The translations under genes and the position numbers were made by a program. 64,000 nt of DNA from Dechloromonas sp. (GTDB taxonomy: Bacteria > Pseudomonadota > Gammaproteobacteria > Burkholderiales > Rhodocyclaceae). The stretch lies in NCBI GenBank assembly GCA_028689015.1, contig JAQTXC010000003.1:69350-133349 (forward strand), read 5' to 3'. Shown one piece after another: positions 43,097 through 46,639 of this stretch (its first letter is position 1; the number at the start of each line of letters is the position of its first letter). Under the pieces are notes generated by a model, which saw nothing but the letters and a program-made list of their open reading frames with translations, was not told the origin of the DNA and ran no database searches.

Positions 43097-43597
43097 CTAA
43101 AGCTTTTTCTCCATCACGAAATCATCCATCACGTAACCGCGACCGATGTCATCCACCGTCACCGTACGGATTTCGAAACCGTATTTCATGTAGGAGTTGA
43201 TCGCCTTCTCGTTGCGCTTGTTTACCTGCAGGATCACGCACGGGTAACCAATTTTCTTGGCTCGCGCCGCGACATGGGCGATCAACTGGCCACCCACCCC
43301 CTTGCGCTGTACGTCCGGGTGAATGTACAGCTTGTCGAGCTTGAATTCCCCTTGGTAAATCTCGCTAAAGGCAAAACCGACGCGGCGATCCTCTTGGAAA
43401 GCCTGGTCCAGCCATTTGTCGGCCTCTTCCAGATCATCGTACAGCCGCTCATGACCGTAGCGCTGCTCCAGCATGAAGTCGATCTGTTCCTGAGTGATGA
43501 TGCCAGGATAAGTGGCCTGCCAGATTTCGCGGGCCAAGGCCGAGATGGCCGGCACATCGGGCGGCGTCACGGGACGAATTTCAATAGTCAGGCTCAT
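43097..43597 (-). CDS. GNAT-family N-acetyltransferase
   Basis: 166 residues. The acetyl-CoA-binding motif A is seen as LYIHPDVQRKGVGGQLIAHV with the Q/R-x-x-G-x-G/A turn, followed by ILQVNKRNEKAINSYMKYGF, the motif B helix. Substrate unknown. It overlaps the acyltransferase gene upstream by four bases, and its stop is about 60 bases from dapF. Confidence 0.87.
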   Translation of the reverse strand: MSLTIEIRPVTPPDVPAISALAREIWQATYPGIITQEQIDFMLEQRYGHERLYDDLEEADKWLDQAFQEDRRVGFAFSEIYQGEFKLDKLYIHPDVQRKGVGGQLIAHVAARAKKIGYPCVILQVNKRNEKAINSYMKYGFEIRTVTVDDIGRGYVMDDFVMEKKL

Positions 43598-44469
43598 GGG
43601 TAAAACCTCTGTTCTCCGGGTGGCCGGGTTTTGAAACGTTTATGCAACCAGAAATACTGCTCCGGCATCGTCAGTACCTGGCTTTCGATGAAGCGATTCA
43701 TGCGCAGCGTGTCTGCCTCGATGCTGTCGCCAGGGAAATTATCCCATGACGGCAGCACTTCGAGGACATAGCCCTGTGCCGTCAAGCGACTAATGCAGGG
43801 CACAACCCGGGCGCCGGTCAGGCGCACCAGACGCGACAACGCAGGAATGGTCGCCGCCGGCACCCCAAAAAAGGGGACAAAAATCGAATCGTCCGGACCG
43901 AAATCCATGTCGGGCAAATAGTAGAAACGCCGCCCCTCGCGCATCGCCTTGATGATCTTGCGCAAACCGTCCTGACGCGACAGCAGCAAAACATCAGAAA
44001 AACGGCGCCGACCGTTGTACACCAGTCGATCGAACACCGGGTTTTTCTGGCGCGAGTAAATGCTGCACCCCGGCACCCGCATCGAGATGCGGATCGCTCC
44101 GGCATCGAGACCGACAAAATGCGGCGACAACATGATGATCGGCCGCCCCGCCGGGTCGCTCAAATGTTCGGCCCCGCGAATATCGATCAGTGCTTCCAGA
44201 CGCCGCCGGGAAGCCCACCAGACCAGGGTGCGGTCGAGCAAAGCCTGGGCAAAAACGATGAAATGGCGCCGTGCCAGCTGCTCGCGGTCGACCTCGCTCA
44301 TGTGCGGAAAACACAGAGCCAGGTTGGTCAGCGCCACCTGCCGACGCTCCCGGCCGAACCGGAAGAGCAGCCGGCCAAGTCCAGCCCCCAGCGCCCGCAA
44401 CCAGGGCAAGGGCAGAAAATGCAGGCACCACAACAGGCCCAGTAGCGGAAAGCTCAAGAGGTGCTTCAT
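43594..44469 (-). CDS. lpxL: lipid A late acyltransferase-like (LpxL/HtrB family)
   Basis: 291 residues with an N-terminal membrane anchor (about 5-38). The HX4D/E active site is His117 and Asp122 (SPHFVGLD). A YLPDMDFGPDDSIFVPFFG block and the C-terminal PEQYFWLHKRFKTRPPGE are typical of HtrB/LpxL. It adds a secondary acyl chain to lipid A precursors at the inner membrane. It overlaps the second acyltransferase by four bases. Confidence 0.9.
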   Translation of the reverse strand: MKHLLSFPLLGLLWCLHFLPLPWLRALGAGLGRLLFRFGRERRQVALTNLALCFPHMSEVDREQLARRHFIVFAQALLDRTLVWWASRRRLEALIDIRGAEHLSDPAGRPIIMLSPHFVGLDAGAIRISMRVPGCSIYSRQKNPVFDRLVYNGRRRFSDVLLLSRQDGLRKIIKAMREGRRFYYLPDMDFGPDDSIFVPFFGVPAATIPALSRLVRLTGARVVPCISRLTAQGYVLEVLPSWDNFPGDSIEADTLRMNRFIESQVLTMPEQYFWLHKRFKTRPPGEQRFYP

Positions 44470-45317
44470 GCCGTCTCGTCGACGGGTGGCGACTCAGCGC
44501 CACCCGGCCGCTTGTAGCGGTTGTAACCCCACAAATACTGGGTCGGACAATCGGCAATCAGCGCTTCAATCTCACGATTGATCTGTTCGGCCCGGTCGAC
44601 CGTATGACCCAGCAAGGGCGACAACGGCGGCCGAAAATGCAGGCGATACCCAGCGCCCGCCGGCAAGCGCTCCCCCCAGGCAAACAAGGTCGTGGCCCCA
44701 GTTTCGGTCAGCCGGGCCGCCAGCGTCATGGTGTAAGCGTAACGACCAAAAAACTTCAGCCAAACACCCTCTCCGGTTTTAGGCGCCTGATCCGGCAACA
44801 TCCCAACCGCCTGACCCTTTTTCAAGGCCTTGATCAGACTGCGCACGCCCGACAGATCGGCCGGTGCCAGATGGAGTTGCTCCCGCTGCCGACCGCGCAG
44901 GATCAACGCCTGCAGGCCGGCCGATTTGGGTGCGCGGTACAACACGGTAATCGGTGCCGCGGTCGACAGATACTGGGCAACAATTTCGAAACACCCCAGA
45001 TGCGGCGTCATGAAGACAATGCCGTGCCCGTCAGCCCGCGCCGCCTCAACATGCGACCAGCCGCACACCTCGACTACCTGGGCATTGGCCTGCGGCAAAC
45101 TGCGCATCCAGATGCGCGCCAGTTCGAGCATCTGTTTGCCCGCTTCGGCAGCCGCCGGCCACGCCAGATCGCGGGCAAAGCCTGCCTGCTCCAGGTTAGC
45201 CTGCAAGTTGGCCCGATAGGTTGGCGACAGGAGATAGACCAGACGCCCCAACAGCCCTCCCAAGCCATGCAGAATGCGCAAGGGCAGGCAGGCGAGAAGC
45301 CGGAAAAGAAAAACCAT
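44466..45317 (-). CDS. second lipid A acyltransferase-like protein of the LpxL/LpxM family
   Basis: 283 residues with an N-terminal hydrophobic helix. The active site is HX4E with His106 and Glu111 (TPHLGCFE). GMLPDQAPKTGEGVWLKFFG and PTQYLWGYNRYKRP are the later family blocks. Paralogous to the adjacent gene, it may supply the other secondary acylation. It is divergent from metK across 158 bases. Confidence 0.88.
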   Translation of the reverse strand: MVFLFRLLACLPLRILHGLGGLLGRLVYLLSPTYRANLQANLEQAGFARDLAWPAAAEAGKQMLELARIWMRSLPQANAQVVEVCGWSHVEAARADGHGIVFMTPHLGCFEIVAQYLSTAAPITVLYRAPKSAGLQALILRGRQREQLHLAPADLSGVRSLIKALKKGQAVGMLPDQAPKTGEGVWLKFFGRYAYTMTLAARLTETGATTLFAWGERLPAGAGYRLHFRPPLSPLLGHTVDRAEQINREIEALIADCPTQYLWGYNRYKRPGGAESPPVDETA

Positions 45318-45330
45318 GATGGGTACAGGC

Positions 45331-45358
45331 TTGAAATTCAGCAGGAAAGGGCTAACAT
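45331..45358 (+). promoter_or_regulatory. probable metK promoter
   Basis: TTGAAA (45331-45336), a 16-base spacer and TAACAT (45353-45358). The expected transcript start, about 45365, coincides with the 5' edge of the riboswitch candidate. Confidence 0.5.
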
Positions 45359-45365
45359 TATCGTT

Positions 45366-45416
45366 TCGCCGAGTTAAATAGACAACTTGCGGGGCGATTC
45401 ATAAATGCCGCTAAAG
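45366..45416 (+). promoter_or_regulatory. SAM-II riboswitch aptamer candidate upstream of metK
   Basis: The segment has the SAM-II pseudoknot order. P1 is TCGCC (45366-45370) with GGCGA (45393-45397), with GAGTTAAAT in the first loop. P2 is GCGG (45389-45392) with CCGC (45408-45411), extended by CTT with AAG. The 3' part reads CATAAATGCCGCTAAAG, which matches the AUAAAUG-NN-GCUAAA core I remember for SAM-II. Placement before the SAM synthetase gene is the expected context. Recognised from memory, without a covariance search. Confidence 0.72.
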
Positions 45417-45475
45417 CGTCGCCTGCTCGTGGCCCGAAGCCGGTAACGCCGGACCAAGGGCCCCTGGAGCATCGC
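45417..45475 (+). promoter_or_regulatory. metK leader hairpin and ribosome binding site
   Basis: Between the aptamer and metK, GGCCC (45431-45435) can pair with GGGCC (about 45458-45462), enclosing CCGG-TAACG-CCGG. GGAG (45466-45469) is six bases before the ATG. GCCCC (45460-45464), next to the GGAG, could instead pair with GGGGC (45391-45395) inside the aptamer, giving an alternative fold. That switching role is inference. Confidence 0.45.

Positions 45476-46639
<1,164 letters not shown>

Follow-up and report, generated by a model that had tools for sequence, protein, structure and literature searches.

A conserved pseudoknot RNA homologous to SAM-II in the metK leaders of Burkholderiales, a probable SAM-responsive switch

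How is the gene for S-adenosylmethionine (SAM) synthetase controlled in the Burkholderiales? The metK product is the enzyme that makes SAM, and in Dechloromonas sp. the gene is preceded by a leader that a first-pass annotation had described as a candidate SAM-II riboswitch. The window analyzed here is the whole 64,000-nucleotide stretch of DNA that carries this leader. According to the available text of the 2014 survey of Leyn et al., betaproteobacterial metK had no known regulator and the survey's own search at metK failed (PMC4239095). A table footnote in a 2022 paper, in the part of that paper at hand, records a suspicion of regulatory elements in the Burkholderia thailandensis leaders of metK, metX, and metZ and gives unpublished data as its confirmation (PMC8814607), so an element at this place was already suspected there. 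SAM-II mechanisms in alpha- and betaproteobacteria are mentioned in the accessible portion of Barrick 2007 (PMC2258182). In the literature that we searched, which left most subscription journals and preprints outside, there was no account of a betaproteobacterial metK riboswitch, nor a published structure, family, or ligand for one. We conclude, with a probability of roughly three in four, that the metK leader of the window is a conserved pseudoknot RNA homologous to SAM-II that is likely to bind SAM, with reduced metK translation at high SAM levels as the predicted outcome. If so, this would provide a direct, testable answer to the question of metK regulation for a large part of the order.

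The first-pass annotation had proposed two helices, P1 (TCGCC/GGCGA) and P2 (GCGG/CCGC), and a SAM-II-like core, all placed between a promoter and the SAM synthetase gene. Direct reading of the window agreed with both pairings and their coordinates, with the position of the core upstream of metK, and with the placement of the whole between a promoter-like sequence and that gene. The features of the leader are as follows.

45331..45358 (+): promoter-like pair TTGAAA - 16 - TAACAT, from the leader sequence
45366..45370 (+): P1 5' strand (T45366-C45370), covarying with 45393-45397
45371..45377 (+): GAGTTAA, presumed third strand of a putative P2 triplex, from alignment with SAM-II loci and the SAM-V contacts given in the available text of PMC6061858
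45381..45383 (+): P2a 5' strand GAC, pairing with the GTC strand
45387..45392 (+): UUGCGG, two U residues for presumed triples and then the P2 pseudoknot 5' strand (45389-45392), from alignment and covariation
45393..45397 (+): P1 3' strand (G45393-A45397), from covariation
45400..45416 (+): core CATAAATGCCGCTAAAG, by direct reading
45403..45405 (+): AAA linker ahead of P2, in the place of the SAM-V A-minor linker, whose role it may share
45408..45411 (+): P2 pseudoknot 3' strand CCGC, pairing with G45389-G45392, from covariation
45412..45415 (+): UAAA, presumed SAM contacts corresponding to U47, A48, A49, and A50 of SAM-V (PMC6061858, available text)
45418..45420 (+): P2a 3' strand GTC, pairing with 45381-45383
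45424..45428 (+): anti-Shine-Dalgarno strand TGCTC, pairing with 45467-45471 in the minimum-energy fold
45431..45462 (+): inner stems of the Shine-Dalgarno hairpin, from the minimum-energy fold
45466..45469 (+): Shine-Dalgarno sequence GGAG, by direct reading and from the fold
45476..46639 (+): metK, methionine adenosyltransferase (SAM synthetase), NCBIfam TIGR01034, 604.7 bits

P2a is a third short helix that was absent from the first-pass annotation, and the element reaches past position 45416, where that annotation had ended it, with P2a extending to 45420 and the Shine-Dalgarno hairpin to 45471. The core contains GCTAAA at 45410-45415 by direct reading, and its UAAA columns were invariant across the 46 aligned leaders described below. 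Many relatives carry a variable insert, often hairpin-like, directly ahead of the AAA linker. P1 starts a few bases after the promoter-like -10 box, and a TANNNT box was found no more than 16 bases upstream of P1 in 61 of the 75 leaders in which the motif was parsed, compared to a mean of 3.7 in control segments further up. On the other side of the promoter-like pair, at 43594-45317 (-), two adjacent genes that were read as lipid A-type acyltransferases are divergent from metK, and in other leaders of the family the element seems, by eye, to be preceded by the start of a similar gene.

Conservation and distribution of the element

The sample comprised 118 metK leaders, the window's among them, all drawn from whole genomes within the order and enriched for the window's own family. 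The motif was parsed in 75 of them, from ten families. Three more (L086, L091, and L126), missed by the parser and not counted in the 75, carry the full motif by eye and add two families, one (L118) has only its 3' half, and 39, one of which (L060) is cut off, have no motif. One of the 75 (L064) has a mismatched P1 5' strand and was excluded from the alignments. From the 74 usable motif references, 51 were placed in alignment A1 and 46 in alignment A2, which excludes five short-spacer rows put out of register by MAFFT. In A1, 96.7% of the 454 P1 and pseudoknot cells paired, with the misses confined to the five rows out of register. In A2, all of the P1 and pseudoknot cells paired (414/414, 100%), compared to a mean of 92.7% in shuffles and to at most 54.9% when the partner strand was slid. 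Compensatory P1 and P2 changes in related metK leaders, which the first-pass annotation had called for, were present: changes on both sides occurred in six of the nine pairs of A2 and in 50 cells, versus a shuffled mean of 16.8 cells, although the relatedness of the sequences inflates these pairing tests. The double changes fall in different families and read GCGG/CCGC, GCAG/CTGC, and GCGA/TCGC in P2 and GAC/GTC, AGC/GCT, and AAC/GTT in P2a.

P2a was evaluated on 125 distinct instances, with the 24 instances from RF00521 loci tallied separately. The P2a and position 8 counts exclude the 118 loci fetched with an exact pattern that requires GAGTTAA. P2a was fully paired in 113 of the 125 (shuffled mean, 86.5; maximum, 95), and among the 35 in which it is not GAC/GTC it paired in 23 (shuffled mean, 13.3; maximum, 21), with a mild bias remaining in these figures from the inclusion of hits to a covariance model, R1, that contains P2a letters. 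The motif and its pairings exceed chance. We considered and rejected a GTT/AAC hairpin within the loop, formed by GAGTT and AACTT, as it is not conserved in the GATTTAA and AAATTGC rows, and these letters were therefore read as the third strand and the P2 strand.

R1 was built from the 46 metK leaders of A2. At an E value of 0.01 or less, its matches within the order covered 230 of 349 genomes and 112 of 147 genera, and it added one further family at metK (f20). The first-pass annotation had presented the leader as a Rhodocyclales metK example; it was right that this is a metK leader RNA and understated how far the element extends. Across the phylum, R1 matched 53 of 398 genomes, with 29 of these from the same order (the window included), 16 from one additional family within the class, and another 8 from elsewhere (E, 2e-7 to 9e-3). 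Within the window's genome, the metK leader was the sole R1 match below an E value of 3 (the next had an E value of 3.2), and its 78.3 bits arise by construction because the window is one of the 46 rows of R1. The loci fetched with the exact pattern, among the matches listed (80 of 118), include Burkholderia multivorans, Cupriavidus, Achromobacter, Bordetella genomosp. 1, Roseateles, Thauera, Dechloromonas, Accumulibacter, Sutterella, Chromobacterium, Vogesella, and Aquitalea. Of the best 30 R1 loci, 24 have metK directly downstream of the element, four have another gene, and two were unparsed.

Relation to SAM-II and SAM-V

The window was compared to Rfam, and no match reached gathering level across its 64 kb, RF00521 (SAM-II; gathering score, 36 bits) and RF01826 (SAM-V) included. 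Within the 401-base leader stretch at 45200-45600, no riboswitch model matched up to an E value of 10, including RF00521, RF01826, and RF01727. The sole match of any kind in that stretch up to the same E value was to a snoRNA model; it lay at 45288-45352, ahead of the element, scored far under the cut-off of that model, and was taken as chance. In 16 other motif-bearing loci, the element gave no Rfam match up to an E value of 1, and in two of these loci a riboswitch for S-adenosylhomocysteine (SAH) was found elsewhere in the locus in the same search. The Rfam models do detect known families in the window's genome, where two SAH riboswitches scored over the cut-off. RF01826 had no match in 398 genomes but none in 14 controls either, and that search is uninformative. 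We conclude that the element is a real, widespread cis-regulatory RNA matched by no Rfam 15 model, and annotation relying on those models would therefore miss it.

The relation of the element to SAM-II was seen when R1 was run on 24 loci, 18 of which were taken from 30 SAM-II loci retrieved with RF00521. R1 matched the RF00521 site on the correct strand in 9 of these 18, with scores of 8.3 to 14.2 bits and E values of 0.03 to 1.1; a further two weak matches fell off-site, and in genome G043 R1 and RF00521 matched one place. Because R1 lands on SAM-II sites in this way, the element is considered homologous to SAM-II. The SAM-II assignment of the first-pass annotation is thus upheld as to homology and not as to membership in the family that RF00521 defines. 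Since that annotation had taken a covariance score below threshold as its refutation rule, its family name fails while its prediction of P1 and P2 passes. The element also has the general traits of a cis-regulatory riboswitch: the conserved putative aptamer precedes genes related in function (metK and metZ), a promoter-like -10 box is located just upstream, and the Shine-Dalgarno hairpin stands beside it as a candidate expression platform.

A second element in the same genome, more closely related to SAM-II, precedes metX (L001:1501-1574, minus strand; G000:C33:20599-20672). It scored 31.3 bits with RF00521, against the cut-off of 36, and 19.5 bits with R1 (E, 0.001) in the same 24-locus search. 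It is followed by a terminator-like hairpin with a T run, by metX (667 bits with the NCBIfam model for homoserine O-succinyltransferase MetX), and by a metW-like gene read from the sequence. The available text of Leyn et al. describes a metXZ RNA element of Betaproteobacteria in metX and metZ leaders, with a terminator and a predicted pseudoknot, and gives SAM_alpha only from Rhizobiales and Rhodobacterales (PMC4239095). The metX element is probably this metXZ element, an orphan that is suggested here to be a divergent SAM-II. As far as that text describes it, the metXZ element resembles the metK element in being a betaproteobacterial methionine-gene leader with a predicted pseudoknot and differs from it in belonging to metX and metZ with a terminator.

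The ligand pocket was predicted from the contacts described for SAM-V. In the available text of PMC6061858, the SAM adenine is paired with U47, which also contacts U8, the triples U20:A48.U9 (beside the sulfonium) and U19:A49.U10 form, and A50 holds the amino acid end. By sequence alignment, the equivalents in the window would be T45412 for U47 with G45373 for U8, T45388:A45413.T45374 and T45387:A45414.T45375 for the two triples, and A45415 for A50, so that all of the named contact positions appear to be retained except position 8, which is changed from U to G. Position 8 is G in 90 of 95 metK copies, giving a third strand of GUU as opposed to the UUU of SAM-II with UUGC and GCUAAA retained, and in 7 of 30 other copies. 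The metK copies with U at this position are L027, L028, L031, L033, and L036. A G at position 8 could alter the predicted pocket, which would then be a natural variant of the SAM-II/SAM-V pocket. The C found at position 18 instead of A is no peculiarity of the metK type, because it also occurs in 19 of the 24 RF00521-locus instances.

The metK type and SAM-II (RF00521) share the H-type pseudoknot, the core (A/C)UUGC ... GCUAAA, and the spacing of P2a, which lies three bases from UUGC and two from UAAA in both the window and RF00521 loci such as L127. The metK type differs in having no RF00521 match, four continuous P2 pairs (more than in most of the SAM-II loci examined), a three-pair P2a, and G at position 8. 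P2a has six pairs in SAM-II loci such as L127, with L152 among the shorter ones. The main targets differ as well, being metK for the element and metY, the core target of SAM_alpha in the available text of the 2014 survey (PMC4239095). With the longer spacer, 113 of 115 instances have both of the outer P2 pairs, and the metK type therefore has a continuous P2, as does SAM-V; the first outer pair is missing in 9 of 10 short-spacer instances. Judged by the available description of SAM-V (PMC6061858), the likeness to that class comprises the continuous P2, the short P2a, a P3-like optional insert after P1, and Shine-Dalgarno control, and the differences are that the metK-type element has no RF01826 match and has G in place of U8. 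The same source links a short P2a to translational control. In SAM-V, as described there, the Shine-Dalgarno sequence lies at the aptamer 3' end and is taken up by P2a, whereas in the window it lies about 45 bases after P2a in a separate hairpin. The SAM/SAH riboswitch (RF01727) is likewise a small pseudoknot directly upstream of metK, but in the available texts (PMC2864571 and PMC7367207) it is known from Rhodobacterales only, and the metK leader here has no RF01727 match.

It is unlikely that the element is simply an ordinary SAM-II RNA whose score is low since the RF00521 model is mainly alphaproteobacterial. Such a reading draws on the core and P2a spacing common to both, on the landing of R1 on SAM-II sites, and on the intermediate look of the short-spacer metK copies and the metX element. 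Yet RF00521 gave no match to the leader up to an E value of 10 and still scored the metX element of the same genome at 31.3 bits, the outer P2 pairs are continuous in nearly all long-spacer instances but 18 of the 24 RF00521-locus instances lack the first of them, and position 8, predominantly G in metK copies, is U in all 24 of the latter. The element is most aptly described as a metK-type variant within the SAM-II/SAM-V superfamily.

Expression platform and predicted control of translation

In the window, the base of the downstream hairpin is formed by TGCTC (45424-45428), three bases after P2a, with GAGCA (45467-45471), and it encloses the Shine-Dalgarno sequence. Its folding energy is modestly better than that of shuffles (z, -1.89), 6 of 200 of which fold as well. 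Over the 72 scorable motif leaders, the mean Shine-Dalgarno pairing probability was 0.79, and it was at least 0.7 in 54. When the part from the aptamer to the Shine-Dalgarno sequence was shuffled, mean pairing of at least 0.7 was obtained in 24 of the 72 leaders, and among the 38 metK leaders without the motif, pairing was at least 0.7 in 8 of the 17 that could be scored. Leaders in which the script found no Shine-Dalgarno sequence or start codon were unscorable, and these numbered 3 of the 75 motif leaders and 21 of the 38 no-motif leaders.

By analogy with SAM-V and SAM-II, we infer that ligand binding changes the state of the Shine-Dalgarno sequence. The third strand GAGUU would dock in the P2 groove as it does in those classes, SAM would sit between the third strand and GCUAAA, and the folded aptamer would stabilize P2a and thereby the adjoining Shine-Dalgarno hairpin, giving the OFF state. 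With SAM as the presumed ligand and OFF as the presumed direction, the element is probably a SAM-responsive OFF switch. Two simple views of the ligand-free state were tried and rejected. In pseudoknot-free ensembles of the 72 leaders, the Shine-Dalgarno sequence was paired both with the aptamer present (0.775) and in the downstream part alone (0.794), and a simple ligand-free state that opens it is absent from these ensembles. A competition model, in which the free third-strand GAG captures the anti-Shine-Dalgarno CTC, was set aside as well, with the complement missing, by eye, in G-type leaders of several other families. In the minimum-energy fold of the window without the pseudoknot, the P1 3' strand pairs with UCGCC at 45419-45423 instead of forming P1, and the mean probability of P1 over the 72 leaders was 0.543 in the pseudoknot-free calculation.

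Transcription termination, as opposed to translation, has a low probability of being the means of control in the metK leader. T runs lie downstream of the aptamer in 26 of the 75 leaders, so that termination may matter in some lineages, and terminator-like hairpins follow the metX element and the first elements of the tandem pairs described below. In the window, however, no terminator-like site was found in 45250-45500, no T run follows the hairpin, and the hairpin encloses the Shine-Dalgarno sequence, all of which argue for the preferred reading of translational control.

Tandem pairs and downstream genes

We identified 17 distinct tandem pairs, in each of which a SAM-II-like element is followed by a hairpin with a T run and then by a metK-type element (L197, L204, L207, L168, L169, L182, L252, L267, L275, L280, L293, L298, L302, L307, L313, L333, and L345). 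The third strand of the first element is ATTTGA or ATTTGT, and the T run has four T or more by eye. SAM-II/SAM-V tandems of Pelagibacter are proposed, in the available text of PMC11508383, to control both transcription and translation. With two SAM-type pseudoknots in a row, the betaproteobacterial pairs resemble this two-tier design and by that analogy may be further examples of it from another lineage; they differ from the Pelagibacter tandems in that the second element is of the metK type, and the window has a single element.

Several genes other than metK lie behind the element. One is metZ (L212). A conserved protein of about 100 residues starting with M[YF]DC lies behind the element or a tandem in L168, L179, L182, L193 to L195, L197, L198, L206, L208, and L209, and in 12 of the 17 tandems its start lies no more than 90 bases from the second element. 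It matched no Pfam or NCBIfam family over the cut-off where tested, and a homologue search gave one near-identical, nameless match. A MATE-type exporter, read from the sequence only, is located further downstream in several of these loci. Other elements precede an HD/RelA-like protein (L201 and L203; weak match of a fragment to SpoT/RelA), an AAA-type ATPase (L185 and L210; weak Pfam matches), or unnamed proteins (L169, L204, and L207). If the element responds to SAM as predicted, the uncharacterized genes behind it would be marked as belonging to SAM metabolism, and the small M[YF]DC protein and the neighboring exporter would be candidates for SAM-linked functions.

These genes also bear on the ligand. 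The same fold might bind SAH or a related metabolite through a changed adenine plane, a reading that we regard as quite improbable. It would account for the change of U8 to G in most metK copies and for the several downstream genes of unknown function, but the remaining named SAM-V contacts are kept, including both U residues close to the sulfonium, metK and metZ belong to the SAM pathway, and the tandem partners are SAM-II-like. The two separate SAH riboswitches of the window's genome (L355 and L356, on C48 and C83; 62 and 53.9 bits) also argue against it, as with these the genome would sense SAH and SAM by separate RNAs. Very unlikely is a structured leader that binds no ligand, serving as a protein or ribosomal standby site with a constitutive Shine-Dalgarno hairpin: folding does keep the Shine-Dalgarno sequence paired regardless of the aptamer and some downstream genes have no known SAM link, but the homology to a validated SAM aptamer, almost all of whose contacts are retained, the association with metK and metZ, and the tandems with SAM-II-like elements all speak against it.

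Beyond the preferred reading of a SAM-binding OFF switch at metK, we consider the odds to be about even that the element constitutes a new class of the SAM-II/SAM-V superfamily and the missing betaproteobacterial regulator of SAM synthetase, in which the U-to-G change remodels the adenine end of the pocket and two-tier switches, with a SAM-II-like terminator followed by the element at the ribosome site, also govern uncharacterized genes.

In another family of the class (f55), two loci (L227 and L230) have the element ahead of a 106-residue protein that begins with MTCPNPHVR and has no NCBIfam match.
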